Below, piece by piece: positions 10,303 to 31,795 of a stretch of DNA of 34,167 nucleotides. Source of the stretch: Elusimicrobiaceae bacterium. GTDB lineage: Bacteria > Elusimicrobiota > Elusimicrobia > Elusimicrobiales > Elusimicrobiaceae. Position 1 is the stretch's first letter, and each line of letters begins with the position of its first letter. The notes under the pieces were generated by a model. The model made no database searches. It was not told where the DNA came from and saw nothing but the letters and a program-made list of their open reading frames with translations. Made by a program: the position numbers and the translations under genes. Where the stretch lies: NCBI GenBank assembly GCA_016283355.1, contig JAEEMS010000020.1, positions 1 to 34,167 on the forward strand, given 5' to 3'.

Positions 10303-10335
10303 AAAAAAGCCCCAGGTTTTTCCTGGGGCTTTTTT
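10303..10335. terminator. Strong bidirectional terminator between the 189-residue orphan gene and gap
   Basis: A 14-bp stem (10303-10316 with 10322-10335) with core GCCCCAGG/CCTGGGGC, 5-T loop, A6 on the left and T6 on the right. It serves the plus-strand orphan gene and the minus-strand gap gene. Confidence 0.9.
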
Positions 10336-10348
10336 GGGTCTAGAAAAC

Positions 10349-11383
<1,035 letters not shown>

Positions 11384-11472: not shown

Positions 11473-11925
11473 TTATTTCTTTTTGACCGGTTTTTTGATG
11501 AGTGCATCCGGACTGAAGGGGTAGGGCATATAATCTTTTAGCTTTTTCTTTACGATGCGTTGTGGCTTACCCGTGGATAAATCCGCAGTATAGATGGGCA
11601 TATCGGGTTTGCAAAATTCCGTCATTACTTGGCGGCACGCGCCACAAGGAGTGCTTAACGGGCCAAGATCTTTTTGCTGAAACACAATAACAAGGGCTTC
11701 AAATTCTCTTTCTCCGTTACAAACGGCGGCAAAAATAGCGTTGCGTTCGGCACACAGTGTTACACCGTAGGAGGCATTTTCAATATTAGTGCCCCCGTAA
11801 ATATGACCGTTTTTGGTAAGCACGGCAGCGCCTACTTTAAATTTGGAATAGGGTGAGTAGGAATTTTGCATTGTCTGCCCGGCCTTTTGAAAAAGTTTCT
11901 CTAAAACTGTCTTGGATAGTTTCAT
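11473..11925 (-). CDS. cdd: Cytidine deaminase
   Basis: This zinc enzyme deaminates cytidine or deoxycytidine to uridine or deoxyuridine for pyrimidine salvage. It has 150 residues, typical of the small tetrameric class. The zinc site is complete: Cys58 with the proton-shuttling Glu60 in CAERNAIF, and Cys94 and Cys97 in PCGACRQ. The N-terminal YSPYSKFKVGAA is the usual substrate-binding segment. The lysine-rich tail (KKPVKKK) is extra. GGAGG lies 7 nt before the ATG and only 11 nt separate it from the rfbH stop codon, so it is the last gene of the CDP-sugar operon. That position is unusual for a salvage gene. Confidence 0.95.
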   Translation of the reverse strand: MKLSKTVLEKLFQKAGQTMQNSYSPYSKFKVGAAVLTKNGHIYGGTNIENASYGVTLCAERNAIFAAVCNGEREFEALVIVFQQKDLGPLSTPCGACRQVMTEFCKPDMPIYTADLSTGKPQRIVKKKLKDYMPYPFSPDALIKKPVKKK

Positions 11926-11936
11926 GATTTCCTCCT

Positions 11937-13307
11937 CTATTTTTTTGCAGATTTTTTACCGTTTTTATCAATAAATTGGCGGATGGTTTGAACCGTTTTG
12001 GATAATTCCTCTTCGCCAAGTGCTGGGAAAGTTCCCACCCAAAAAGTGTGGTCCATTATAAAATCCGTTTGCGGCAAAAGAGCATATTCCTTTTCCGTTA
12101 AATTACGCGAATTGAAAATAGGCGAATCCCCTATACGCAGTGCAATATCATCCTCCACAAATGCAGGTTGCCGCAGCAGATTACCGGCAAAAAGTTGGCG
12201 GGTGCCAATACCGTGTTCTTCCAAATATTCCACGAGTTGTTGTTTGGTAAAGGGCGCCTCCTCTTTCACGGAAATCAAGTAGCCAAACCATGACGGAGTA
12301 ACGCCTTTTTCAATTTTCGGGAGAATAAGGTAATCTTGTAAATCAGAAAGATGTTTCGTTAAATAAGCCGCATTTTGCGTACGTTTTTCTAAAAACTGTG
12401 GGAGCTTTTTCAATTGGCTCACGCCGAGCGCAGCTTGCCAATCGGTAATTTTTAAATTGTACCCGATATGGGAATAAGTATATTTATGGTCATAGCCGAA
12501 AGGTAGGTGACCCAGTTGCATATTAAAACGGTTTTTACAGGTGTTGTCCGTGCCCGGTTTGCACCAGCAATCACGTCCCCAATCCCGGAAAGATAAAAGA
12601 ATGCGATAAAGTTGAGGATCATTGGTTACTACGGCCCCTCCTTCCCCCATCGTTATGTGATGAGCCGGATAGAAACTATACGTCCCTATATGCCCGATAG
12701 TACCGGCTTTTTTACCGTTCCACTCGGCCCCCAATGCATCGCAAGAATCTTCAATGAGCCATAAATGATGTTTTTGGCAAATGTCTAAAATTTGTGCTAC
12801 GTCAAACATATTACCCAGCGTGTGGGCAAGAAAAATGGCTTTCGTTTTAGGGCTGATGGCTTTTTCAATTTGGAAGGCATTGATGTTGTAGGTGCCGACT
12901 TCGCAATCTACAAACACGGGGATGAGCCCTTGTTGTAGGATGGGATTGACGGTAGTAGGAAATCCGGCGGCAACCGTAATTACTTCATCCCCCTTTTTTA
13001 AACGTTTTTCCCCTAACTTGGGGGATGTTAAGGCAGCAAGTGCCAGTAAATTTGCCGAAGAACCCGAGTTTGTAGATAAAGCAAATTTTACACCGAGAAA
13101 GCGCGATAAATTTTCTTCAAATTGTGCGTTAAATTGCCCTGCAGTAAGCCACATATCCAAGCTGGCTTCTATCATATTTACCAAATCTTCTTCATCCAAC
13201 AGCTTGCCGGAGGGTGGAATATAGTTAAATTCCCGTTTCTTACCATAAATTTCTTTGTAGTAATTACGGGCTGCCTGCTTGACGGTTTCTCTTAATTCTT
13301 TTTCCAT
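11937..13307 (-). CDS. rfbH: CDP-4-dehydro-6-deoxyglucose 3-dehydrase (E1)
   Basis: This PMP-dependent iron-sulfur enzyme of the DegT/aminotransferase fold removes the C3 hydroxyl of CDP-4-keto-6-deoxyglucose. It is the first half of 3,6-dideoxyhexose formation. Two marks separate it from ordinary sugar aminotransferases. The Schiff-base Lys is replaced by His216 in FYPAHHITMGEGG. The cysteines 189, 247, 249 and 257 give exactly the C-X57-C-X1-C-X7-C pattern known for the E1 [2Fe-2S] cluster. Length (456 residues) is typical. The start overlaps the end of rfbG by 16 nt and lacks a strong Shine-Dalgarno, so translational coupling is likely. The usual electron-donating partner E3 (RfbI/DdhD) is not in the window. 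Confidence 0.95.
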   Translation of the reverse strand: MEKELRETVKQAARNYYKEIYGKKREFNYIPPSGKLLDEEDLVNMIEASLDMWLTAGQFNAQFEENLSRFLGVKFALSTNSGSSANLLALAALTSPKLGEKRLKKGDEVITVAAGFPTTVNPILQQGLIPVFVDCEVGTYNINAFQIEKAISPKTKAIFLAHTLGNMFDVAQILDICQKHHLWLIEDSCDALGAEWNGKKAGTIGHIGTYSFYPAHHITMGEGGAVVTNDPQLYRILLSFRDWGRDCWCKPGTDNTCKNRFNMQLGHLPFGYDHKYTYSHIGYNLKITDWQAALGVSQLKKLPQFLEKRTQNAAYLTKHLSDLQDYLILPKIEKGVTPSWFGYLISVKEEAPFTKQQLVEYLEEHGIGTRQLFAGNLLRQPAFVEDDIALRIGDSPIFNSRNLTEKEYALLPQTDFIMDHTFWVGTFPALGEEELSKTVQTIRQFIDKNGKKSAKK

Positions 13308-14365
13308 TTTAAACTCGCAGTATATTCTTTAATTTGTTGCAAAGAGAAAGATGCCATATCCGTTTTTTCTTCATAGAATTTTTTGTACCACAGAACGGTT
13401 TTTACAATGGCTTCCTTGGCTGTGTAAGTAGGGACCCATCCTAAAACTTTTTCCGCTTTGGTGATGTCTAACATTAACAAGTTGGCTTCGTGTAGGTTGT
13501 CTTTGCGGAAAATTTTTAAGTTTCCTTTGCCGTATTCTGCAATGACAAGGCGGGTAACATCTTCTACCGTCAGCACACTGCTTTGTTGTGGGCCTAAATT
13601 AAAACTCTGCGCGTATTTTTTCCCTTGGACACAGAGCAAGTGGCCTAACAGTAAATAACCCGAAAGAGGTTCCAGTACATGTTGCCATGGACGAGTAGCT
13701 TGCGGATAGCGAATGACAATATCCTCTCCGGCTTCAATACTACGCACACAATCGGGAATTAGCCGATCAGTTGCCCAGTCCCCCCCACCCATTACGTTAC
13801 CGGCACGTACGGTGGCTAAAGCAAAGGTTCCTTCTTCTTGTAAAAAAGAACGACGGTAGGAAGAAGATAAAATTTCTACACACCCTTTGGAGGAAGAATA
13901 CATATCATATCCGCCCATGGGGTCATTTTCCGTATAACCGCGGGTTACTTCTTTATTTTCATAACATTTATCGGTAGTAACGTTTACAAAAGCTTTGACA
14001 CTCGGGCAATGACGGGCGGCCTCAAGCACGTTGAGGGTGCCGATGACATTTGTTTCGTATGTAAGTAAAGGTTCCGTGTAGGAAAGACGTACCAACGGTT
14101 GTGCGGCTAAATGAAATACAATTTCCGGTTGAAAATCCGTAAAAACTTGATTAAGACGCTTGGTATCGAGGATGTTCCCTTCGTGGTGAGTGATGTTTTC
14201 TTTTACGCGGGCTACTTCAAAGAGGGCAGGCGTTGTATTGGGTGCTAACGAATAACCGCATACGGTTGCCCCCATGCTTTTGAGCCATAACGTTAACCAA
14301 CTGCCCTTAAAACCGGTGTGCCCAGTCACTAGAACACGTTTCCCCTGGTATGTATCTTGCCACAT
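13292..14365 (-). CDS. rfbG: CDP-glucose 4,6-dehydratase
   Basis: This extended short-chain dehydrogenase converts CDP-glucose to CDP-4-keto-6-deoxyglucose with bound NAD. The start MWQDTYQGKRVLVTGHTGFKG aligns closely with known RfbG proteins, including the GHTGFKG dinucleotide-binding loop. Further landmarks are FHLAAQPLVRLSY, VTTDKCYENKE, the YSSSK catalytic Tyr/Lys pair, VRAGNVMGGGDWA and RPWQHVLEPLSGYL. I chose the ATG at 14365 (357 residues), which begins just after the rfbF stop codon and best matches the family N-terminus. In-frame ATGs at 14377 and 14407 would overlap rfbF and remain possible. Confidence 0.95.
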   Translation of the reverse strand: MWQDTYQGKRVLVTGHTGFKGSWLTLWLKSMGATVCGYSLAPNTTPALFEVARVKENITHHEGNILDTKRLNQVFTDFQPEIVFHLAAQPLVRLSYTEPLLTYETNVIGTLNVLEAARHCPSVKAFVNVTTDKCYENKEVTRGYTENDPMGGYDMYSSSKGCVEILSSSYRRSFLQEEGTFALATVRAGNVMGGGDWATDRLIPDCVRSIEAGEDIVIRYPQATRPWQHVLEPLSGYLLLGHLLCVQGKKYAQSFNLGPQQSSVLTVEDVTRLVIAEYGKGNLKIFRKDNLHEANLLMLDITKAEKVLGWVPTYTAKEAIVKTVLWYKKFYEEKTDMASFSLQQIKEYTASLKWKKN

Positions 14366-14367
14366 AG

Positions 14368-15144
14368 CTAATCCCATTTTTTCCACGGAGCTTTTTCTTC
14401 CAGCCACAGTTTGGTTAATTGGTTTTTATCACGCAACGTATCCATCGGTTGCCAAAATCCTTCGTGTTTAAAGGCATGAAGCTGGCCGTTTTTGGCTAAA
14501 TTCTCAAGGGGGCCTTGCTCAAAAATAATATTTTCCCCTTCCCCGATATAGTCCAATACTTGAGGTTCACAAACGAAGAATCCGCCATTAATCCATCCGC
14601 CGTCCCCTTTGGGTTTTTCCATGAAAGCGGAAACAATCCCATTTTTATCTACGGTAACGGCACCGAAACGACCGGATGGTTTTACCACGGTTACAGTGGC
14701 AAGTTTTCCGGCCGATTCATGAGAATGAACTAAATCTAAAATATTGACATCGCTTACACCGTCCCCGTACGTAAGGAGAAAACGTTCGTTACCGATATAA
14801 TCTTTGGCTTTTTTGATGCGCGAGCCGGTCATGGTAGTTTGTCCGGTATAAAGAAGTGTCACTTTCCACGGTTCCTGACGTGTTTTATGAATGGTAACCG
14901 TGTTGGTAGAAAGATCTACCGTCAAATCGGAATATTCTTGATAATAATTTACAAAATAGTTTTTGATGAGGTGCGATTTATAACCTGTAAGAATGATAAA
15001 ATCGTTGAATCCGTAATGGGAATACCCTTTCATGATATGCCACAAAATTGGACGGTTACCGATTTCTATCATGGGTTTGGGTTTTAAAATAGTTTCTTCA
15101 CTTAAGCGCGAGCCCAGCCCTCCGGCTAAAATCAATACTTTCAT
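14368..15144 (-). CDS. rfbF: Glucose-1-phosphate cytidylyltransferase
   Basis: It makes CDP-glucose from CTP and glucose-1-phosphate, the entry step to CDP-deoxysugars. At 258 residues it matches known RfbF from end to end: LILAGGLGSRLSEET near the N-terminus, KPKPMIEIG, LTYGDGVSDVNI, KPSGRFGAV, EKPKGDGGWINGG, HEGFWQPMDTLRDK and the C-terminal APWKKW. An ATG also exists at 15150, only 3 nt from the AGGAG site. The ATG at 15144 gives a 9-nt spacing and the family-like start MKVLILAGG, so I prefer it. A 61-nt gap separates it from the upstream GT2 gene and may hold a weak internal promoter. Confidence 0.96.
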   Translation of the reverse strand: MKVLILAGGLGSRLSEETILKPKPMIEIGNRPILWHIMKGYSHYGFNDFIILTGYKSHLIKNYFVNYYQEYSDLTVDLSTNTVTIHKTRQEPWKVTLLYTGQTTMTGSRIKKAKDYIGNERFLLTYGDGVSDVNILDLVHSHESAGKLATVTVVKPSGRFGAVTVDKNGIVSAFMEKPKGDGGWINGGFFVCEPQVLDYIGEGENIIFEQGPLENLAKNGQLHAFKHEGFWQPMDTLRDKNQLTKLWLEEKAPWKKWD

Positions 15145-15176
15145 CGACATTCTCTCCTTTCGATAAGCTTTAACTT

Positions 15177-15205: not shown

Positions 15206-16147
15206 TTAAAAATTAATACGTTCCTTTTCTATAACGGCCGGACGTTTTAATACCTGGGTAAAAATTGCGCCGATATATTCACCTAAAATACCTAGGAAAA
15301 ATAATTGTACGGATCCGAAAAATAAAACGGCTAATAACAAAGGCGCTGTTCCCATAGGGAAACGTTCCCAGTAGCATAATTTCAAAATTAAATAAACAAG
15401 AGCGAGCATAAAACTAAAAATGCCCAAGATGAATCCGCCCATTGCCGCCACCCGCAGTGGGACTTTCGTATGGTTGGTAAAACCAATCATAGCATTATCA
15501 TAGAGCGTATAAAAATTGTTTTTGGTAATGCCGTGCTTGCGGGAATGCTGCGCAAACGGAATAAGGGCTTTGGAATAGCCCAATTCACATACCAGTCCGC
15601 GAATGTAGGGATACGGGTCGTTTAAACGGCGGATTTCATCGATTACGTCTTTGTCAAATAATCCAAATCCCGTACAATTATTGGTTAATTCTGCCCCGGA
15701 GTCATTTAGCCATCCTAAAAGTTTGTAATAAAGTTTGCGTGCAGTAGCAAAAACAAAACCCTCTTCCGTTTTTTCTTTTTGAGCGAGAACTACTTTAAAT
15801 CCTTCTTCCCATTTTTGTAAGAATTGCCCAATTAATTCCGGCGGATCTTGTAAATCAGAGGCCAAATAGATTACTGCATCTCCCGTGCATTGCATCATGC
15901 CGTAATAAGGGGATCGGATATGGCCGAAATTGCGTGCGTTGACAATTACTTTAAAATTTTTATCTTCACCGGTAATCTTACGCAGTTCCTCAAGGGTATG
16001 ATCCGTGGAACCGTTATCAAGTACGATCTGTTCGTAATCATATTTATCGGCATGTTTGGACATCTCTGCCTTGACACGTTCGTAAAGTTCACGTACATTG
16101 TCCTGCTCATTGAAAGCACTGGAAACAACGGATATTTTTTTCTTCAT
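15206..16147 (-). CDS. Family 2 glycosyltransferase with C-terminal membrane helices (GtrB/DPM1-like)
   Basis: This 313-residue protein has a GT-A domain followed by two C-terminal membrane helices (about 232-260 and 268-300), the layout of polyprenyl-phosphate glycosyltransferases such as GtrB and ArnC. Visible are ISVVSSAFNEQDNV, the DNGSTDHT nucleotide-binding loop, ARNFGH and the SDLQDPPELI metal/acceptor motif. It probably moves a nucleotide-activated sugar onto a polyprenyl phosphate on the cytoplasmic face of the inner membrane. Its start overlaps the stop of the upstream ThDP gene by ATGA, so the two are translationally coupled. The donor is not predictable; the operon context suggests a CDP-deoxysugar or its product. 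Confidence 0.88.
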   Translation of the reverse strand: MKKKISVVSSAFNEQDNVRELYERVKAEMSKHADKYDYEQIVLDNGSTDHTLEELRKITGEDKNFKVIVNARNFGHIRSPYYGMMQCTGDAVIYLASDLQDPPELIGQFLQKWEEGFKVVLAQKEKTEEGFVFATARKLYYKLLGWLNDSGAELTNNCTGFGLFDKDVIDEIRRLNDPYPYIRGLVCELGYSKALIPFAQHSRKHGITKNNFYTLYDNAMIGFTNHTKVPLRVAAMGGFILGIFSFMLALVYLILKLCYWERFPMGTAPLLLAVLFFGSVQLFFLGILGEYIGAIFTQVLKRPAVIEKERINF

Positions 16148-17949
16148 TTGGGCTCCTTTTCCTTTGAGGGATGAAACTGGGTTTTTCGAAATTCATTACG
16201 GTCTAAAAACGGGAACATATCTTCCAAACTGGGACTGGCTAAAGTGCCGTTTGGCAATTTACGCGAAGAAAGCTTTGGAGAAAAGATGTAATCGGAAGTA
16301 CAGTCAAGTTCACACACCATGGGGCCCTTTGTTGATAGCACTTTCTTAATGCCTTTTTCTACATCTTTGTTTTTTTGGATACGTACTGCCGGTAATCCAA
16401 AAGCTTTTGCTACTTTTACAAAATCGGGTACTTCCACGCCGCTGCGTGCATTGCATCCGGTTAAACGACCGTTAAAGAAGTTGCGTTGAGTTTGAATAAT
16501 GGAAATATATTCCCCGTTTTTAATGATAAAAACTTTAATAGGGAGTTGGAGCGTTTTAAGTGTTTGGAGTTCCTGAATGTTCATCATAATGCTTCCATCC
16601 CCTTCCAAACAAACGGTTTCTTTTTTATTGTTTGCCAAACAGGCACCGATGGCAGCAGGTAAGCCATAGCCCATGGAAGCGTTACCGGAATTAGAGAAAG
16701 TGCGTTGTCCCTTTTTGATAGGGAAAGTTTGCAAAAAAGCCACACAGGAAGTACCGTTTGAGGTAACAAGGACAGCTGGGGTGGGCAATATCTCCCCTAA
16801 TTTTTGCATGAAGAAATAAGGGTGTACCTTGTCGCCTGTTTTTATATTAAATTCCCGCAAAGGCGGAAATTGACGTCGTAAATGTTGGCAATGTTGTAAC
16901 CATCCTTTTGTCCCCAACGGTTTGGGTAACAAACGAACCAGTTCTGGTAAAACCTCTTTTAAATCCCCGCAAATTGACAAATCAGGATGAAGGGTCGGCT
17001 TTTTAAGTTCGGCAGGATCAATATCCACAACGATTTTTTTTGCGTTGTTAGCAAAATGGTCCCAATTGTAGCTGATTTGGCGGATGTTGTTGCGGGTGCC
17101 CAAAAATAAAATTACGTCGGCATTTTGAAGAGCAAAATTCCCCGCCCGCTGGCCCACCGTGCCGATACGTCCAACAAAATGTGGATTTTGATTATCTATC
17201 AAATCGATACCGTTAAAAGTGGTAACAACGGGAATGTGGGTTTGAGAAAGTAAATTTTCTAAATATTTCTGTGTGTGACTTAAACGTACACCGTGGCCCG
17301 CCACAATGAGTGGTTTTTTCGCGTTTTGTAGCCACTTGGCACCCTTTTTAAGAGAAACAGATAGATTCGCTTTTTTTGATTTTTTAGGTGCAAATTTTTT
17401 GAGTTTCTTAGGATTTATCAGGGCAGCTTGTACATTGATTGGAATATCAATCCACACAGGTCCCGGACGGCCGGTAGTGGCGTGATAAATAGCTTCTTCC
17501 AAGACGGCTCTTATCTCATCGGGATTTGTGATCATTTTTGCATATTTGGTAAGAGGGGCTACCACACGGGTAATAGGGGCTTCTTGATCTCCCAATTGGC
17601 GCAAGGGAAGTTGCGGGCAATAGGATAGGGTGGTAGAGGTTTTCACTTGCCCGGAAATGAATAAAACAGGGACACTGTCCGTCCAGGCACCGAATACACC
17701 GTTAAGACAGTTAAGTCCGCCGGGCCCTGTGGTTACGCAGGCAACGGACAACTGATTGTGGTGCCGGGCATATCCTTCCGCAGTGATTGAAAGGGCCTGT
17801 TCATTGTGCGGGAAAATTTTTGTAATTTTTTTGCTTTGACCAAAACTATCGTTGAGGTGCATGGCCCCACCGCCCGTTACCATAAATACGTGGCGCACCC
17901 CGTAAGATTCCAATTTTTTTACTACATAATCCGATAGTTTAATCATCAT
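16144..17949 (-). CDS. ThDP-dependent carboligase, acetolactate-synthase-like (candidate YerE-type branched-sugar enzyme)
   Basis: This 601-residue protein has the three-domain acetohydroxyacid synthase/pyruvate oxidase fold. The N-terminal pyrimidine-binding domain holds the catalytic Glu50 in FPHNEQALSITAEGYAR, followed by TTGPGGLNCLNG. The C-terminal pyrophosphate-binding domain has CLEGDGSIMMNIQEL near residue 450 and the matching Asn in IKNGEY. It sits between a NeuB-like synthase and a glycosyltransferase, in an operon with rfbF, rfbG and rfbH. No ilvN-type regulatory subunit or other ilv gene is nearby, so housekeeping acetolactate synthase is unlikely. YerE, a known ThDP enzyme, adds a two-carbon unit from pyruvate to CDP-4-keto-3,6-dideoxyglucose; that is the best-fitting precedent, by context only. 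The start immediately follows the neuB-like stop codon; a second ATG lies one codon later. Confidence 0.85.
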   Translation of the reverse strand: MMIKLSDYVVKKLESYGVRHVFMVTGGGAMHLNDSFGQSKKITKIFPHNEQALSITAEGYARHHNQLSVACVTTGPGGLNCLNGVFGAWTDSVPVLFISGQVKTSTTLSYCPQLPLRQLGDQEAPITRVVAPLTKYAKMITNPDEIRAVLEEAIYHATTGRPGPVWIDIPINVQAALINPKKLKKFAPKKSKKANLSVSLKKGAKWLQNAKKPLIVAGHGVRLSHTQKYLENLLSQTHIPVVTTFNGIDLIDNQNPHFVGRIGTVGQRAGNFALQNADVILFLGTRNNIRQISYNWDHFANNAKKIVVDIDPAELKKPTLHPDLSICGDLKEVLPELVRLLPKPLGTKGWLQHCQHLRRQFPPLREFNIKTGDKVHPYFFMQKLGEILPTPAVLVTSNGTSCVAFLQTFPIKKGQRTFSNSGNASMGYGLPAAIGACLANNKKETVCLEGDGSIMMNIQELQTLKTLQLPIKVFIIKNGEYISIIQTQRNFFNGRLTGCNARSGVEVPDFVKVAKAFGLPAVRIQKNKDVEKGIKKVLSTKGPMVCELDCTSDYIFSPKLSSRKLPNGTLASPSLEDMFPFLDRNEFRKTQFHPSKEKEPK

Positions 17950-19032
17950 TTATAACCCACGTTCTTCAATTAGCTTTTTTAGCACTTTGTTATGTGCGTA
18001 GGGGCAATCAATCTGTGATATTTTAATGGGGGCATCTTTTTTGATATCTTCCAAAAGCACTTCTCCCCTCATAAGTTCCCGGCAAGAAATTTGTCCTTTT
18101 TGTAAGGGAATGGCCAGGTAAACGTCTTCATCGGTCAATCGGTGTCCTTTGGGTAGGTCCCAACGGGCATATACCCCACGTACCAAAGCATCCAAGTAAG
18201 TGATTTCTTTACGTGGCGCGATATTTTTAGAAGTAGCGCTATGTCCGCAAAGGACAACGGCTTTTTGATACGCCTTGATCCAACGATCAATGTCTTCGGG
18301 CAGAGAACAATAGTCCGATACCGGAATATCATCTGCCTCAATATCAATATGCCGCTCGAAAGTGCGAGCCCCTTTGCCATAGGCAATAAGCATAGAAGAT
18401 TCAAAATCATCATTGAACTCATGGGTGGAAAACCCGATAATGTGTCCGGGGTAACGATTCTTTAAGAAATCAATTTGGTTGAGTTCTAATTCGCATTTTT
18501 CGGAAGGATAAATACTGACACAATGGTTGATGGCCAACGGAATATTGCGGTGCTCGAAGAAAGTGACGAGGTCATCAATATCTTTGAGGGAACTTCCACC
18601 GGTAGAGACAATGACCGGCTTACGGGTGGTAGCGATTTTTTCGATGAGAATCCAATCGTTTAAGTCCGAACTGGCAATTTTAATGATATCGATTCCCAGT
18701 TTGACACAATTGTCCACAGAAACCTCATCGAACGGCGTAGCCATGGGAATACAGCCGTTTTGCCGAATTGCATCTACGAGGATTTGGTAATCCTTAATAT
18801 CCATTTGGGTCGCAACGGTTTTTTTGATATAGCGGATATCTTGTCGGTCTTTAAAATCTTTGTGAATAAACGTGGGAACATTGCGAAATTGCAATTTGAT
18901 AGCCGCACGCACATTGTTAAAACGGACTATTTTTGCAAAATCTTCAATAATCCGAATGCCACGTTCCCGCTTGCCCCAGTGATTATTGGCTAATTCTAAG
19001 ACGAATAAATCTTCAAATATTTTGTTTTTCAT
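17950..19032 (-). CDS. NeuB-family synthase with C-terminal SAF domain, not a classical sialic acid synthase
   Basis: Proteins of this family condense phosphoenolpyruvate with an aldose to give a 2-keto acid sugar. The TIM-barrel part shows LELANNHWG (compare EIGINHEG), AIKLQFR, MATPFDEVSVD, IKIASSDLNDW, PVIVSTGGSS, INHCVSIYP, GFSTHEF and FERHID. These match NeuB metal and PEP landmarks, although the NeuB SGE motif is SSD here. The C-terminal SAF domain starts near RGVYARWDLPKG. Where NeuB, PseI and LegI have an Arg-Pro motif contacting the N-acyl group, this protein has AIPLQKGQ. The substrate is therefore probably not an N-acetylated sugar. It begins 16 nt after the SDR stop codon and abuts the ThDP gene. 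Confidence 0.87.
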   Translation of the reverse strand: MKNKIFEDLFVLELANNHWGKRERGIRIIEDFAKIVRFNNVRAAIKLQFRNVPTFIHKDFKDRQDIRYIKKTVATQMDIKDYQILVDAIRQNGCIPMATPFDEVSVDNCVKLGIDIIKIASSDLNDWILIEKIATTRKPVIVSTGGSSLKDIDDLVTFFEHRNIPLAINHCVSIYPSEKCELELNQIDFLKNRYPGHIIGFSTHEFNDDFESSMLIAYGKGARTFERHIDIEADDIPVSDYCSLPEDIDRWIKAYQKAVVLCGHSATSKNIAPRKEITYLDALVRGVYARWDLPKGHRLTDEDVYLAIPLQKGQISCRELMRGEVLLEDIKKDAPIKISQIDCPYAHNKVLKKLIEERGL

Positions 19033-19048: not shown

Positions 19049-19936
19049 TTATTTATCCGTCAAGAGGAGTTGCTTATCCAGTTGGTCTTGACGTGTTCTA
19101 TAATAATTAAAAAGTTTTTCTACCGCAGTTTCAAGCGGGGTAAACACAACGGAGGGCATTTCCGCCTTTAAGCGTGCGTTACTGCCGGAATAATTCAGCC
19201 CGTATCCTTCTTTGGCTACGCGAATGGGATTATTTCTCCCCCCTATTTTTTGCACCGTTTGAGCGGCCGTTAATAATTCGGTTTCTGTATCTGGGGTAAT
19301 GTTGTATGTTTTATATTTTGTATTGTGCGTGATAAAAAAATCCAAAATAGGCATTAAATCATCGATATACAGATAACTGAACCGGCGGTTTTGCCGCAAC
19401 GTAATGGGCAAATCAAATAACGTTTTACAAATAGCATTGGAAATGAAGCGGATTTCCCAATCCTCGTGCGGGCCAAAAATACCAAAAATATTGAGGTCTG
19501 TTGCATTTGGTAAATTCTCAATACGTTTGTGTACTACGTATTTACAAAAGCTATGCTCATCCTTGCCACAGCGTAGACCGATTTGGTCTTCGCTAACAAG
19601 GCGGTTATCGGCTGCTATGTCGTAGATGGCTCCGCTACCCAAATTGATTAGTTTCCCAAATTTATCCGTGTGACGGACCAAATTTTCAAATATACGGACA
19701 TTGGTATAAAAGAGCTGGGTAGGATCTTTTGCGTTGCGGTGGCCGGGTTTGGCCGCCGCATGTAAGACAACATCGAAAGAATGTGTACGAAAAAAAGTAT
19801 CTACTTGTGCGGTATCCGTAAGGTCCAATTCGACACTGCGCGGTGCCGTAATTTCGTATTTTTCGGCCAGAAAACTTGCTTGAATGTTTTTACCGATAAA
19901 TCCGTTCCCGCCGGTAAGTAAAATAGTTTTTTTCAT
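19049..19936 (-). CDS. NAD-dependent epimerase/dehydratase (extended SDR), candidate CDP-sugar reductase
   Basis: This 295-residue cytoplasmic protein has the extended SDR pattern: ILLTGGNGFIGKN nucleotide-binding loop, LHAAAKPG, the Ser region NLGSGAIYD and the catalytic YVVHK. It resembles the abequose/paratose synthase group in size and layout, but I cannot name its substrate. As the first gene of an operon with rfbF, rfbG, rfbH and a YerE-like ThDP enzyme, it may reduce a keto group on the CDP-sugar product. I chose the ATG at 19936, which has GAGG about 8 nt upstream and gives the expected MKKTILLTGG start. A longer frame to 19963 would run back past the predicted transcription start. 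Confidence 0.85.
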   Translation of the reverse strand: MKKTILLTGGNGFIGKNIQASFLAEKYEITAPRSVELDLTDTAQVDTFFRTHSFDVVLHAAAKPGHRNAKDPTQLFYTNVRIFENLVRHTDKFGKLINLGSGAIYDIAADNRLVSEDQIGLRCGKDEHSFCKYVVHKRIENLPNATDLNIFGIFGPHEDWEIRFISNAICKTLFDLPITLRQNRRFSYLYIDDLMPILDFFITHNTKYKTYNITPDTETELLTAAQTVQKIGGRNNPIRVAKEGYGLNYSGSNARLKAEMPSVVFTPLETAVEKLFNYYRTRQDQLDKQLLLTDK

Positions 19937-19953
19937 AGGAGACCCTCTTCTCC

Positions 19954-19962
19954 ATTGTAGCA
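19954..19962 (-). promoter_or_regulatory. Extended -10 promoter of the CDP-sugar operon
   Basis: The minus strand reads TGCTACAAT here, an extended -10 box 17 nt before the ATG at 19936. The T-rich terminator of the efflux operon lies directly upstream where a -35 would be. The predicted leader is only about 10 nt but still holds GAGG. Confidence 0.55.
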
Positions 19963-19973
19963 AAATATAGGCA

Positions 19974-26385: not shown

Positions 26386-27258
26386 TTATTTTTTCCTTTG
26401 AAGTTGTTCTTTTAAATAATCGTAGTAATTGTTTTTAGGGGATTTTTTAAGGCGTGTTAGTAATTGGGAACGGCTGATAAATCCTTTTTCTAATGCAATT
26501 TCTTCTAAACAGGCAATTTCCACGCCTTGGTTGATTTGCATCGTATGGACAAAATTGGATGCTTGCAATACCGTTTCGTGCGTACCGGTATCCAGCCAGG
26601 CAAATCCACGGTCTAGGCGGCTTACATGCAATTGTCCTTTTTGCAAATAAAGACGGTTCAAATCGGTAATTTCCAATTCCCCCCGGTACGAGGGCTGTAA
26701 TCTTTGGGCTAATTTTACCACTTGGTTGTCATAGAAATAAAGGCCGGTCACCGCAAAATTGCTTTTTGGATTTCTTGGTTTTTCATCCAAAGAAATCGCT
26801 TTTCCTTTTTTATCAAAAGCAACTACCCCGAAACGTTCCGGATCGCTTACTTCGTAGGCAAAAACAGTTGCCCCTGTTTTGTTTTGTAACGATTTTTTTA
26901 ATATATTCTCAAAACCGTTACCGTAGAAAATATTGTCACCTAAGATGAGGGCGCAGCGTTCTTTGCCGATAAAATCTTTTCCAATAATAAAGGCATCCGC
27001 AATCCCGCGTTTAACGTGTTGCACAGCATAGGAAAGGTTTAATCCCCATTGATGTCCATCTCCCAAGACGCGTTTAAAATTTTCATTGTCTTCCGGGTTT
27101 GTAATGATAAGAATGTCTCGAATTCTTGCCTGCATGAGTACAGACAACGGATAATAAATCATGGGTTTATTATAAACGGGTAGGAGAATTTTTGAAATAG
27201 GCAGAGACGCAGGATAAAGACGCGTACCGGCTCCGGCAGCTAAAATAATTCCTTTCAT
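26386..27258 (-). CDS. rmlA: Glucose-1-phosphate thymidylyltransferase
   Basis: This cytoplasmic enzyme makes dTDP-glucose from dTTP and glucose-1-phosphate, the first step to dTDP-rhamnose and related sugars. The 290-residue length and landmarks are standard: [71 protein letters not shown] and WLDTGTHE. No rmlB, rmlC or rmlD is beside it. It overlaps the upstream phosphatase gene by ATGA, so the two form a coupled pair transcribed away from the exopolysaccharide export genes. Confidence 0.96.
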
Positions 27259-27707
27259 GGGATGACTCCTTGAGTTTGTTTAATTCTTTTAACGGCAGTT
27301 TCAACTGCTTCTTGCAGTAAAGTAGCTTGTTTAATAAAACTCCTTCCGGATAATAAAATGGGATCTTGTAAATTCGTGTCTTTGGAAAAGGAAAAATCGT
27401 TCAGTAACCACATTTTATCGCTATACTGTGCGTAGCGGTCTAACAAATTTTCCAAATGTGCTTTTTCCATACAAAAAATATAATCTGCCTCTCGTAAATC
27501 GTCAACAGTTAATTGCGTAGAAATATGCGGTGTTGGCGTGATATTTAGAGAAGATAAAAAGTCCAACACTTTTGTGGGGATCGCATACTCTTTATTGGCA
27601 TACAAACCACGGGAAAATACCGACGCTTGAGGAAGTAAATTTTTACAAATTTCTTGCGCCATAAAACTGCGGCAAATATTTGCATGGCAAATAAATAATA
27701 TTTTCAC
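27255..27707 (-). CDS. Low-molecular-weight protein-tyrosine phosphatase (Wzb-like)
   Basis: The 150-residue protein begins with the signature loop CHANICRS, giving nucleophile Cys7 and Arg13 of the C-X5-R motif, and has a later QDPI that fits the general-acid Asp of this family. In capsule and exopolysaccharide loci such enzymes dephosphorylate the BY-kinase, and a Wzc-like kinase is encoded 2.4 kb away. The start is GTG with no Shine-Dalgarno. A TGCTATAGT extended -10 box lies only 7 nt before it, so the mRNA is probably leaderless. Arsenate reductase is a less likely alternative because there is no ars gene nearby. Confidence 0.88.
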
Positions 27708-27714
27708 ACTACAT

Positions 27715-27723
27715 ACTATAGCA
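27715..27723 (-). promoter_or_regulatory. Extended -10 promoter of the phosphatase-rmlA pair
   Basis: The minus strand reads TGCTATAGT here. The -10 hexamer ends 7 nt before the GTG start codon at 27707, so transcription should begin at or next to the start codon. Confidence 0.5.
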
Positions 27724-27728
27724 AATTT

Positions 27729-27734
27729 TATAAA
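27729..27734 (+). promoter_or_regulatory. Probable -10 box of the Wzy-like gene
   Basis: TATAAA ends 8 nt before the ATG at 27743. A TTCACA hexamer at 27703-27708 is too far upstream (20 bp) for a normal -35. There is no Shine-Dalgarno, so initiation on a leaderless mRNA is plausible. Confidence 0.4.
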
Positions 27735-27742
27735 ATATCTTT

Positions 27743-29404
27743 ATGAATTTATTGCTCAAATCCGGAGTAATTTTTTTCCTGTTTTTTGCTCCTTTTGCTT
27801 TTGCTTGTACCACCGCATGGGCCTTTTCCGTTTTACAATGTGGGGTAATGGGATTGTGTGTTTTGGCTGCTTATACTTCCCGTCATTGGTATATAACCCG
27901 CCCGCTTAAATGGATTACGGCGATTTTGTTGTTTTTGTTGGGGTTTGCCCTGCTGCAAAGTTGTTTCCCTTCTACCTTATTAGAAAAAGTTTCCTGGCAT
28001 CCCATTACATTGGTACGCTTATATACGTTGCATACGGCTTCTTTATTTTTGACGTATTTGGCTTTAGTGTGGCTAACTGTACAGGTGTTCCCCTCTTTTG
28101 CAGATGCCAAACGAACGTTACTGTTGGTGGCTTTATGTGGTAGTGCGGTGGCTTTATGTGCGGCTTCTTTGCCAAAAGGGGCTTATTTGTTCCACTTGGC
28201 TGGGGTGCGTGGTGGTTTCGGTCCGTTTATGAACCGCAACCACGCCAGTATTTTCCTGGCTATGTGTGCGGTGGGAATGTTGGCCTACTTTTTTACGTCC
28301 CACATCCAATATGCTAAAAAAGTGATGACAAATCAACTACCATCCTTTTACATCCGTCAATGTTGCTTGGCCGTAGTTTTTCTATGCCTTTGTGCCGGAG
28401 TGATTTTTACACGTTCACGCGGTGGGATGTTGGCACTCACGGTAGGAATTTTTACATATGCTTTTTTATGTTGCTGGGTGATTCCCCCCCAACTTAAAAA
28501 GAAACTAAAAGGGGTATTTTTTACCTTAATCGCTTTGGGGTTAGTTTCCTGTTGGGTGGCCACGCACATTCCTCAGATTAATGCATTTGCGCATCGTGCA
28601 ACGGGCACATCGGAGATGACACGAAAGATGCTTTATCGCTCCACATTTCGTGTGCTAAAAGAATATCCTTACTTTGGCGTGGGTATTTCGACAACACCGT
28701 TAGTTATCCCGAACTATTTTGAATGGCCCGTAAAAAAATATGTGAATTATCTACATTGTGATTGGCTGGAACTGTTGTTGGGAGTGGGATATGTGGGAAT
28801 CCTCCCTGTACTTATATTGCTTGTGGGGTTGGGGATTGTATTTTTGAAGCGGTTGAAAGAGTTGGAAACCAAAAAACAGATACTTTACAGCGGATTACTT
28901 AGTATTTTGGTGGTAATGTGTATTGGAAGCGCAGTGGATTTTGATTTCTTTATACCGGCGAATGCCTTTTTGTTCTTTCTTATCGCAGGGCTTGCGTCTT
29001 CTCCTTCTTTTTATAAGGGACGTACCCACACAACGCTTATGGAGTGGAAGAAACGAGCTGTACTGATAACGGTGTGTGTGTTGGCCCTTTGGGTACCACT
29101 GCGTAAGACGTTGGCTTGGAGAACGGCTTACTTTGGCAAAGGACTCAAACCGGAATCTAAAATTGCCGCGTATGAAAAAGCCGCTGCGTACTACCCGGAC
29201 CCGCGTTACGGTTTGCAGTTGGCGGCTTCTTACTACAATGCGGCCGTACATAGCAAACAGCCCCAGCAACGTTTGGATTTTTTGCAGCAGGCGAATCGTG
29301 TTGCAACTGTTTACCTGCAAAAGTATCCCAAAGAGAAGGAATTATCCCGTATTTATATGCTTACCCGTCCCTACCGTTCAATTGGAAATTCCCCTCACAT
29401 TTAG
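27743..29404 (+). CDS. O-antigen polymerase/ligase-type membrane protein (Wzy/WaaL fold) with C-terminal TPR-like tail
   Basis: This 553-residue inner-membrane protein has about ten to twelve hydrophobic helices and a large periplasmic segment. The region GGFGPFMNRNHASIFLAM, followed by FTRSRGGMLALTVG, matches the conserved core of the Wzy_C/O-antigen ligase family. After the last helix near residue 450, the chain is helical and TPR-like (AAYEKAAAYYPDPRYG, then ASYYNAAV and YLQKYPKEKELS). It likely polymerises or ligates polysaccharide repeat units on the periplasmic face. The downstream Wza-like and Wzc-like genes support polymerase in an exopolysaccharide or capsule pathway. Wzy and WaaL cannot be told apart here. 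Confidence 0.88.
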   Translation: MNLLLKSGVIFFLFFAPFAFACTTAWAFSVLQCGVMGLCVLAAYTSRHWYITRPLKWITAILLFLLGFALLQSCFPSTLLEKVSWHPITLVRLYTLHTASLFLTYLALVWLTVQVFPSFADAKRTLLLVALCGSAVALCAASLPKGAYLFHLAGVRGGFGPFMNRNHASIFLAMCAVGMLAYFFTSHIQYAKKVMTNQLPSFYIRQCCLAVVFLCLCAGVIFTRSRGGMLALTVGIFTYAFLCCWVIPPQLKKKLKGVFFTLIALGLVSCWVATHIPQINAFAHRATGTSEMTRKMLYRSTFRVLKEYPYFGVGISTTPLVIPNYFEWPVKKYVNYLHCDWLELLLGVGYVGILPVLILLVGLGIVFLKRLKELETKKQILYSGLLSILVVMCIGSAVDFDFFIPANAFLFFLIAGLASSPSFYKGRTHTTLMEWKKRAVLITVCVLALWVPLRKTLAWRTAYFGKGLKPESKIAAYEKAAAYYPDPRYGLQLAASYYNAAVHSKQPQQRLDFLQQANRVATVYLQKYPKEKELSRIYMLTRPYRSIGNSPHI

Positions 29405-29410
29405 TATAAT
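29382..29410 (+). promoter_or_regulatory. Promoter immediately before the Wza-like gene
   Basis: TTGGAA (29382-29387), a 17-bp spacer and TATAAT (29405-29410) form a good promoter that overlaps the 3' end of the upstream gene. The -10 ends 8 nt before the ATG at 29419, so the transcript is predicted to be leaderless or nearly so. Confidence 0.55.
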
Positions 29411-29418
29411 TTGAGTAT

Positions 29419-30069
29419 ATGAAAAACTATTATTTTGTATTTTTGGCTCTTTGTGCCGTTTGCGGGCTGGGGGCCTGTTCTTCTGCTAAGATTCAAGACA
29501 AAGCTTCTATTCAAAAACAACTGGAACAACAAAATGTTTTGAATGGAATAGAAACGATCCGTTCTTCCGCATCCTATACGCTCCAACCGGGAGATTTGGT
29601 TGAAATTCAAGTGTTTAAAGAGGACGATATGCAACGCACATTGCGTTTAAACGGCAACGGGAGCGTTACCTTCCCGCTCGTGGGGAATATCCATTTGTCG
29701 GGGTTAACTTTAGAAGAGGCGGAACAAAAATTAGCCGGGCAGCTTATGGCATATTTACGTAATCCGCAAGTATCTATGTTGGTCAAAGAATACGGTAACA
29801 AAACCGTGTACGTATTGGGGCAAGTGAAAAAACCTTCTTCTATCGAAATCCCACCGGAAAAATCCTTGACCGTATTAGAGGCCATCAGTTCGGTTGGCGG
29901 GTTTACGGACATTGCCAACACTTCGAAAGTGCGCGTTTTGCGTACGAAAGACGGTAAACAAGAATCGTTGGATGTAGATGTTGCGCAAATTACCAAGCAA
30001 GGTAACAAATTGTTGGATATAGCGTTAATGCCCGGTGACGTGGTATTTGTGCCGCAAAGTATGTTTTAG
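29419..30069 (+). CDS. Polysaccharide export lipoprotein (Wza-like, Poly_export plus SLBB)
   Basis: This 216-residue outer-membrane lipoprotein belongs to the channel family that exports capsule or exopolysaccharide. The signal peptide ends in the lipobox LGAC with Cys20; no Asp follows it, so transport to the outer membrane is expected. The Poly_export domain (about residues 50-125) starts SYTLQPGDLVEIQVF and includes FPLVGNIHLSGLT and YLRNPQVSM. One SLBB domain follows, with VYVLGQVKKPSSIEI and AISSVGGFTDIA. It is much shorter than E. coli Wza, with one SLBB and no C-terminal transmembrane helix, as in many OPX-B/C-type proteins. The lipobox fixes the start even though the Shine-Dalgarno is poor. 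Confidence 0.94.
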   Translation: MKNYYFVFLALCAVCGLGACSSAKIQDKASIQKQLEQQNVLNGIETIRSSASYTLQPGDLVEIQVFKEDDMQRTLRLNGNGSVTFPLVGNIHLSGLTLEEAEQKLAGQLMAYLRNPQVSMLVKEYGNKTVYVLGQVKKPSSIEIPPEKSLTVLEAISSVGGFTDIANTSKVRVLRTKDGKQESLDVDVAQITKQGNKLLDIALMPGDVVFVPQSMF

Positions 30070-30079
30070 TGAGTAGATT

Positions 30080-31795
30080 ATGGAAAATACAACGAACGAA
30101 GAATTTGATTTAAGTGAAATTATACAAGTGTTGTTTAAGCATATTTGGGTAATAGCGGCACTGATGTTGTTGGGACTGGTGGCGGCCGTTTTGGTAAATG
30201 TGTTGATGCGCCCCGTCTACGAAGCTACGACACTGATGATGATTAATAAAGAAAATGCCGGAAAATTGGATGTAGATACGTATGGTTCTTTTTCGGCAGA
30301 GGAAGATTATTACCGCACGCAGTACCAACTGTTGGAAAGTCGCTCTTTGCTTGAAAATGTGTACAATCAATTGGATTTGAATCAATATAACGAATTTGCA
30401 AACCCGGGAGGAATCGGCAAACTCAAAAGAGCCATAAAGGTGGACCCGGTAACGCGCAGCCGTTTGGTGAACGTAAAGGCACGTTCGTATGATTCGCAAT
30501 TAGCTGCGGAGATATCCAACACGTTGAGTAGTTCTTTCGTGGCAGAAAACGTAGAAAATCGTATCTCGATGGGGCAAGATGTTATTCGCGCGCTTGAAAG
30601 CACGGAAAAGAGTAGTGCCGAACAAGAATTGCTTAATTCCATGCCGCAAGTGGTAAACAGCGATTTTATCAAGTCGCTTAAACAACAAGCGGCGCAATTA
30701 GAAGGTAAAAGAGCGGAGCTTTCCGCTAAATATACGGATAAACACCCGGAAATAGTATCTGTTAACCGCCAGTTATCCTCTATTCGAGAAGAAATCAGTA
30801 CGGAAACACGCCGTTTGGTGCAAAGTATTAAAATTGAACTTTCCGGTCAATTTTCCGGTAACAATATCCGCATTGTAGACCCGGCTATCGTTCCCACTTC
30901 TCCTGTTTTCCCCCGCAAGCTGCTCAATTTGTTGATAGGGTTGTTAGGTGGCGCGGTGATAGGCGTATTGGTTGCATTTGTATTGGAATTTTTAGATCAG
31001 AGCGTTAAAAATTCCGAGGAAATGGATGAGAAACTCGGGTTGCCTTTCTTGGGTTTTGTTCCTTATGAGAAAACCAAAAAGAAAGAATCCGAGTATGCCA
31101 CCATGCTTAAAGAAGGGAACTTTTTGAAAGCCGAGAATGTGCGTAATATTCGTACGATGCTGGAATTTGCCTTGGCAGGGGATACCAACGCTCCGTTTTT
31201 AATTACCAGTTCTTTGCAAGGGGAAGGAAAGAGTTATTTATCAAGCAATTTAATGGTGGCTTTGGCGCAAGCCGGTAAAAAAATATTGCTTATTGACGGA
31301 GATTTACGCCGCAGCCGTTTGCATAAGACGTTTAAACTCTCACTTGATAAAGGGCTAAGTAATATATGGGACAAAGACCCCAAAAAAGCCGATTATGCGG
31401 CCAATGTGCAGCCCGTGGCGGATGTAAAGAATTTATTTGTAATGACTTCCGGTACACGTCCCCCCAATCCGGCCGAATTACTTGGTACCCCGAAGTTGGC
31501 TGATTTTATTGCATGGGCCCAGAAACATTATGACCAAGTAGTGGTGGATTGCCCTGCTATTTTGCCGGTATCGGATACTATGTTGTGGGGCCGTCATATT
31601 CCACGGGCTATTTTTGTGATTAAATACGGCAAAACCAATGTTAAATTGGCTAAAATTGCGCTAGATAAGCTGCAAAAGGCCGGTGTGAAGGTGTTAGGCG
31701 GTGTTATAGGTGCTTATCAGCCGCAAGGCCTTTCCTACGGGAAATATGGCTATTACAAGAGTTATCACTATTATTCGGACGAAGAAAAGAAATAG
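30080..31795 (+). CDS. Polysaccharide co-polymerase / BY-type tyrosine autokinase (Wzc-like)
   Basis: This 571-residue inner-membrane protein controls chain length and export. The N-terminal Wzz domain lies between two membrane helices (about residues 20-45 and 275-300), with a coiled periplasmic part and the usual Pro-rich approach to helix two (VPTSPVFPRKLL). The cytoplasmic BY-kinase has Walker A SSLQGEGKS near residue 376, Walker A' ILLIDGDLRRSRL near 403 and Walker B VVVDCPAI near 487. A C-terminal tyrosine cluster (SYGKYGYYKSYHYYSD) holds the autophosphorylation sites. It begins 10 nt after the Wza-like gene. The divergent LMW phosphatase is its likely partner. Confidence 0.95.
   Translation: MENTTNEEFDLSEIIQVLFKHIWVIAALMLLGLVAAVLVNVLMRPVYEATTLMMINKENAGKLDVDTYGSFSAEEDYYRTQYQLLESRSLLENVYNQLDLNQYNEFANPGGIGKLKRAIKVDPVTRSRLVNVKARSYDSQLAAEISNTLSSSFVAENVENRISMGQDVIRALESTEKSSAEQELLNSMPQVVNSDFIKSLKQQAAQLEGKRAELSAKYTDKHPEIVSVNRQLSSIREEISTETRRLVQSIKIELSGQFSGNNIRIVDPAIVPTSPVFPRKLLNLLIGLLGGAVIGVLVAFVLEFLDQSVKNSEEMDEKLGLPFLGFVPYEKTKKKESEYATMLKEGNFLKAENVRNIRTMLEFALAGDTNAPFLITSSLQGEGKSYLSSNLMVALAQAGKKILLIDGDLRRSRLHKTFKLSLDKGLSNIWDKDPKKADYAANVQPVADVKNLFVMTSGTRPPNPAELLGTPKLADFIAWAQKHYDQVVVDCPAILPVSDTMLWGRHIPRAIFVIKYGKTNVKLAKIALDKLQKAGVKVLGGVIGAYQPQGLSYGKYGYYKSYHYYSDEEKK

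Follow-up and report, generated by a model that had tools for sequence, protein, structure and literature searches.

A NeuB-family protein encoded at positions 17950-19032 of the window (the whole stretch of 34,167 nt analysed here, from an Elusimicrobiaceae bacterium) probably serves, and we say so with good confidence, as a phosphoenolpyruvate (PEP)-dependent donor synthase for a neighbouring YerE-like thiamine enzyme that builds a branched sugar. The odd residues of this NeuB-like protein would be explained by its context, namely the YerE-like enzyme and the rfbF, rfbG and rfbH genes.

A NeuB-like clade without the SAF arginine

The reading frame at 17950-19032 was confirmed to be open on the minus strand. 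It encodes 360 aa and consists of a NeuB barrel (PF03102, E 3.1e-35, 122.2 bits for a gathering cut-off of 22.1) followed by a SAF domain (E 1.5e-5); we propose it to be a 3-deoxy-2-keto acid synthase. The closest solved relative was PDB 3G8R (E 1.8e-66), then meningococcal NeuB (E 1.5e-22), and the match to Bacillus subtilis SpsE (1VLI, E 3.1e-16) was far weaker than that to 3G8R. An AlphaFold2 model of the protein (pLDDT 75.9) was compared with solved structures by Foldseek, which also ranked 3G8R first, then PseI and NeuB.

The first-pass annotation of this DNA had claimed that the arginine of the SAF domain was replaced by isoleucine and that the SGE motif read SSD, and both substitutions are present. 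In the phmmer alignment, the segment AIPLQKGQ lies opposite KRPG-NGD of Neisseria meningitidis NeuB, so that Ile308 (codon 18109..18111, minus strand) stands against Arg314, a position pinned by the crystal entries 4IPI and 4IPJ (R314A and R314K). SGE is replaced by S121-S122-D123. NeuB forms dimers in which the SAF domain of one subunit extends into the active site of the other.

These positions were followed in an alignment of 82 clade rows, three rows from a sister clade and, from the control loci, 31 rows of other NeuB-family proteins. Site 308 is Ile in 55 clade rows and Val in 27, and the three sister rows all have Ile, whereas Arg was found in 25 of the 31 other rows and was absent from six, a difference well beyond what chance would give. 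The loss of Arg is therefore a mark of the whole clade related to 3G8R; an isolated oddity of the window protein was considered and rejected, as the loss runs through the entire clade. However, six ordinary NeuB-family rows lack the residue too, so that a missing Arg alone is no proof of a non-acetamido substrate. The barrel landmarks, which the first-pass annotation had described as kept, are invariant: E13, K46, Q48, K118, S121, Y175, H204, E226 and H228 are identical in 82 of 82 clade rows, together with S143 and S202. Among them, we take E13, K46, K118, H204 and H228 to be the catalytic Glu, Lys and two His, after their roles in meningococcal NeuB. A pseudoenzyme was likewise rejected, given that the catalytic residues are intact throughout the clade. 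Two residues past Q48, on the same strand, lies Arg50 (codon 18883..18885, minus strand). All 85 rows of the clade and its sister have it, versus only 3 of the 31 other rows, and it may be another Arg of the same pocket, a case that the first-pass annotation had listed as counting against its reading.

In the phylogeny against the NeuB family, which the first-pass annotation had suggested as a check and from which SpsE was left outside, clade, sister and other rows were split with one change each (starred support of 100 for the clade and for the others, 79 for the sister clade). Main and sister rows group with 3G8R, and the branch to the other NeuB-family rows has a starred support of 100; the long branches of several control rows make the placement of those particular rows unsure. 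The 3G8R protein, from Chromobacterium violaceum and named "probable spore coat polysaccharide biosynthesis protein E", lacks the SAF Arg as well (it has Phe), but differs from the window protein in its position in the tree, among the sister rows (support 79). Our literature search found no functional paper on it. The NeuB, PseI and LegI synthases share with the window protein the PF03102 barrel, the SAF domain and the catalytic residues; they differ by their separate clade (starred support of 100) and by other partner genes.

Gene context and pairing with YerE-like genes

All genes of the cluster are on the minus strand. The start of a gene for a 601 aa thiamine-diphosphate (TPP) enzyme (16144..17949; N, M and C TPP_enzyme domains) abuts the stop codon of the NeuB-like gene. 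Its nearest solved structure is the YerE-like enzyme JanthE (8RPH, E 8.9e-111), which it matched with 374 bits versus 260 bits or less for acetolactate synthases. Three further genes passed the equivalog cut-offs of their models: RfbF, glucose-1-phosphate cytidylyltransferase (14368..15150; TIGR02623, 388 bits, cut-off 300), RfbG, CDP-glucose 4,6-dehydratase (13292..14407; TIGR02622, 477 bits, cut-off 278), and RfbH (11937..13307; NF011936, 676 bits, cut-off 423), the enzyme leading toward CDP-4-keto-3,6-dideoxyglucose. This nucleotide sugar is the product of RfbF, RfbG and RfbH together. The cluster is completed by a reductase of the NAD-dependent epimerase/dehydratase type (SDR, 19049..19963; PF01370, E 2.8e-23), and by a GT2 glycosyltransferase (15206..16147; PF00535, E 6e-25) whose best NCBIfam models, of PgfS and ArnC type, scored below their cut-offs. 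The first-pass annotation had been silent on the thiamine-enzyme and rfbFGH genes.

Two other regions of the window deserve mention. A cytidine deaminase gene (11473-11925) directly follows rfbH, and one occupies the same position in locus L022. Further away, at 27258-31795, a low-molecular-weight phosphatase gene precedes genes that, on inspection by eye, resemble those for an O-antigen ligase, for a polysaccharide exporter of the outer membrane and for a chain-length tyrosine kinase. It may be into this polysaccharide that the branched sugar goes.

The first-pass annotation had noted that the operon contains neither a CMP-sialic acid synthetase nor a 2-epimerase, which holds for the cluster; acetamido-sugar genes and a cytidylyltransferase for an ulosonic acid are absent from it as well. 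In the whole genome from which the window comes, the sole strong CTP_transf_3 match was KdsB, two more matches being weaker and barely above the cut-off, and Epimerase_2 had no match over its cut-off. These data bear on the possibility that the protein is after all a nonulosonic-acid synthase of the NeuB, PseI or LegI type. Its substrate would then be an acetamido sugar, Arg50 or some other residue would take the place of Arg314, and the TPP gene would separately make a yersiniose-type sugar from pyruvate. The fold and catalytic residues are those of NeuB, Arg50 is conserved through the clade, and the six Arg-less rows of the ordinary family would fit such a replacement. Yet the window protein scored only 106.7 bits with the N-acetylneuraminate synthase model (TIGR03569, cut-off 399.65) and 105.5 bits with the PseI model (TIGR03586, cut-off 340.25), the genome gave no Epimerase_2 match over the cut-off and no strong match to a CMP-sugar synthetase apart from KdsB, and both the YerE-like pairing and the aldolase swap reported below are left unexplained. 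We regard an acetamido substrate of this kind as unlikely, and an unusual sialic, pseudaminic or legionaminic acid synthase was rejected as the main reading on model scores and context.

To see how constant the pairing is, genome contigs were scanned and 456 relatives of the NeuB-like protein were found, of which the best 80 were kept; these are the closest ones and not a random sample. Judging by the titles of their records, they come from Elusimicrobiota, Gastranaerophilales, beta- and alphaproteobacteria, Acidobacteria, Myxococcota, Cyanobacteria, Verrucomicrobia, Patescibacteria and an actinobacterium. In 75 of these best 80 loci, a YerE-like TPP gene lies beside the NeuB-like gene, with a median gap of 33 bases and, for 70 of the 75 pairs, on the same strand. 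In four of the five exceptions (L050, L070, L081, L086 and L110), the NeuB-like gene is at most 1.1 kb from a contig end, and L070 still holds part of a TPP gene; in the genome of the fifth, a TPP gene is found on a separate contig together with RfbH. Among the 31 control loci with other NeuB-family genes, only L195 had a TPP neighbour that reached 35% identity (38%), and a 28% homologue was present in L181. At the limits used, neither NeuB-like nor TPP matches came up in plasmid records, whereas three weak matches to the NeuB family were obtained from phage records.

The other cluster genes are less constant. RfbH was found within 8 kb in 42 of 79 NeuB rows, GT2 in 43 and an SDR match in 29, the last two being thus not universal. 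This scatter would agree with a donor made for the TPP enzyme as we propose, with an acceptor other than CDP-4-keto-3,6-dideoxyglucose. The genome G071, a MAG, had no RfbH orthologue, and the RfbH homologue of loci L222 and L223, which sits beside rfbF and rfbG, shares only 35-37% identity. Against this, RfbH orthologues (52-58% identity) were detected in 10 of the 11 clade genomes searched, including seven of the eight that have no RfbH at the locus, and the window itself has all of rfbF, rfbG and rfbH. A different acceptor is in our estimate improbable, and CDP-4-keto-3,6-dideoxyglucose is retained below. Locus L222 also encodes, at 10323-11249 and beside the TPP gene, a 308 aa protein with a weak Rieske match.

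Exchange of candidate donor genes beside YerE-like genes

A second search, centred on the TPP gene, covered 185 genomes from a single class, 396 from an actinobacterial phylum, 337 from an alphaproteobacterial class and 198 from the phylum of the window. It yielded 86 TPP rows in 85 loci, a set that omits places already counted as NeuB-like loci and a few incomplete ones. Within 6 kb, 29 rows had an HpcH/HpaI-family aldolase gene, 10 a DmpG gene, two an HMGL-like gene, and 22 a NeuB-family gene (10 of the main clade, six of the sister clade and six others), whereas no candidate was recognised for 23. None of the 86 rows had two donor kinds; among the clade-centred loci, a second candidate donor gene was nearby in three (L047, L056 and L068). 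The HpaI-family assignments come with modest Pfam scores, 31.5-44.5 bits for a cut-off of 25. In L223, DmpG and DmpF both pass the equivalog cut-offs (4-hydroxy-2-oxovalerate aldolase and acetylating acetaldehyde dehydrogenase, respectively). The 23 rows with no donor gene have a median of 37% identity to the window TPP protein, some reaching 48%, and most are TPP genes of low identity, which may work with pyruvate as YerE does.

The exchange also occurs within the genus of the window, where the order rfbF-rfbG-rfbH-SDR-X-TPP recurs. X is a NeuB gene in the window and in 11 more loci, 12 in all, and an HpaI-family gene in nine, and the SDR of the window is retained in both versions. The scaffold is 55-85% identical to that of the window; some of these loci stop at contig ends or have part of the scaffold missing, and in a few an AroB-like module or a HAD gene is inserted. 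One species (G1061) has one NeuB copy and one HpaI copy. In a DmpG locus, L334, rfbF, rfbG and rfbH are kept, and the SDR (33%) and TPP (38%) genes are its own. In a FastTree tree of TPP proteins, the window belongs to a starred set comprising 19 rows, 12 with NeuB and seven with HpaI neighbours, and the NeuB label changes at least 17 times on starred branches. Rows within a genus are related, so that the Fisher and shuffle values of this analysis are not independent tests. Since NeuB, HpaI and DmpG genes often replace each other beside a near-constant partner, they most likely perform the same step, the synthesis of a 2-keto acid donor.

Gene pairing alone leaves the order of steps unfixed, and the TPP product, an aldehyde or a keto sugar, might conversely be extended with PEP by the NeuB-like enzyme, whose product would then be the end sugar. 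Three facts make this reversed order very unlikely. The DmpG and HpaI-family genes found in the sibling slots have 2-keto acids as known products, the cluster has no ulosonic-acid cytidylyltransferase, and YerE and ErwE use 2-keto acid donors on CDP-4-keto-3,6-dideoxyglucose, according to PMC12247030.

Other gene arrangements were seen beside YerE-like genes. Loci L225 (9471-10816) and L328 (10671-12060) have a NeuB-family protein devoid of SAF domain next to a KdsC-type phosphatase and YerE-like genes, which is probably an independent recruitment via a phosphorylated keto acid. In L234 (3037-4770) and L326 (11292-13025), a YerE-like gene is adjacent to the gene of a 577 aa protein whose N-terminal part resembles DmpG, with a score below the cut-off; these proteins are perhaps another donor synthase.

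Proposed pathway and its substrate

From these genes, we infer the reactions, their order and the product as follows. The NeuB-like synthase would join PEP to a plain aldose with no acetamido group, or to the phosphate of such an aldose, and so form a 3-deoxy-2-keto-4-hydroxy acid. Rather than ending up as a cell-surface sialic acid, this keto acid would be used as donor by the YerE-like thiamine enzyme encoded beside the synthase. The thiamine enzyme would decarboxylate it, and add the resulting acyl anion to the C4 ketone of the CDP-4-keto-3,6-dideoxyglucose provided by RfbF, RfbG and RfbH. The SDR would reduce the new branch ketone, and the GT2 enzyme would transfer the finished sugar. The predicted product is a CDP-3,6-dideoxyhexose with a 4-C-(1,3,...-polyhydroxyalkyl) branch, caryophyllose- or erwiniose-like, in which branch carbon 2' would be a CH2 derived from C3 of PEP.

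The first-pass annotation had deduced a non-acetamido substrate from the missing Arg. The substrate is likely to be of that kind, mainly on account of gene context, and the part of the argument that did not stand is the sufficiency of the Arg loss. The context points to it in three ways: the cluster has no acetamido-sugar genes and is paired with a YerE-like enzyme, the slot is filled in sibling clusters by aldolases using plain aldehydes, and the sister-clade proteins carry a fused cupin domain that has D-lyxose isomerase among its relatives. The cupin is C-terminal and was present in all eight sister-clade NeuB genes (L193:7960-9483, L235:6964-8481, L030, L031, L285, L323, L324 and L327). 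Two of these cupins were tested with Pfam, and matched Cupin_2 first and D-lyxose isomerase more weakly; the nearest solved structures of the sister cupins include D-lyxose ketol-isomerase (E 6.7e-9 and 8.7e-5) and L-ribose isomerases.

Two further gene types were counted in the neighbourhoods. An FGGY kinase gene was beside 10 of 79 NeuB rows and none of the 30 HpaI rows (xylulokinase was the best NCBIfam model, far below its cut-off). HAD phosphatase genes of one type were near 31 of 117 NeuB, sister or HpaI rows, but near none of the 34 rows that have DmpG or no recognised donor gene (Fisher p 1.8e-4, the rows being related). Taken with the cupin, these hints, which are indirect and come in part from the sister clade, favour a plain pentose-type aldose, perhaps phosphorylated. 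A pentose-type aldose or its phosphate is our first choice for the aldehyde substrate, though we hold this choice as somewhat less likely than not. For gastriose, an eight-carbon keto acid would be needed, which matches pentose plus PEP.

Some clusters contain in addition an AroB-like gene, whose best model is a "sugar phosphate phospholyase (cyclizing)" (TIGR04425, below cut-off), together with a short-chain dehydrogenase gene (L040:6874-9990, L299, L300, L316, L291 and L298). This combination was found in the cluster of 13 of 79 NeuB rows and 7 of 30 HpaI rows, and of no DmpG row. The module may close the sugar branch into a ring.

A wider scheme can be put forward, tentatively: a single core of rfbF-G-H, reductase and YerE-like genes with swappable donor cassettes (NeuB-family with PEP, HpaI-family with pyruvate, or DmpG/DmpF), such that sister species would display different, mostly undescribed, long-branched sugars. 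The NeuB donor would be in that case an eight-carbon, KDO-like acid made from a pentose, and the AroB-like module might close the branch to a carbocycle.

Several enzymes of the same ThDP subfamily are documented in the literature. For YerE, in the yersiniose A pathway, the donor given by PMC12247030 is pyruvate or 2-oxobutyrate. JanthE is described as a YerE-like enzyme (PMC12188165 and PMC12247030), and its physiological donor as not established (PMC12188165). ErwE, of the erwiniose pathway, is a YerE-like ThDP enzyme that takes a long hydroxylated 2-keto acid as donor and CDP-4-keto-3,6-dideoxyglucose as acceptor; it also accepts 4-hydroxy-2-oxopentanoate, the DmpG product, and the MMAR_2332 enzyme of Mycobacterium marinum (caryophyllose), YerE-like too, has similar donor preferences, with a long hydroxylated 2-keto acid as donor (PMC12247030). 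According to PMC5706390, caryophyllose of M. marinum is a 3,6-dideoxy-4-C-(1,3,4,5-tetrahydroxyhexyl)-hexopyranose. Its 2'-CH2 branch carbon is exactly the pattern predicted for a PEP-derived donor. The window cluster differs from the ErwE and MMAR_2332 systems by having a NeuB-family gene as proposed source of the donor. In the literature covered by our search, which contains few subscription journals, no NeuB-family synthase was found tied to a YerE-like branched-sugar pathway.

If the proposal is true, it would give a concrete function to a clade that has a single solved structure, labelled as a spore-coat protein, and that belongs to a family read as sialic-acid synthases, and gut and environmental carriers of these genes would cease to count as sialic-acid makers. 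It would also provide matched enzyme pairs for the biocatalysis of chiral tertiary alcohols, and a candidate source of the donors, long and hydroxylated 2-keto acids, from which sugars of the erwiniose and caryophyllose type are built.
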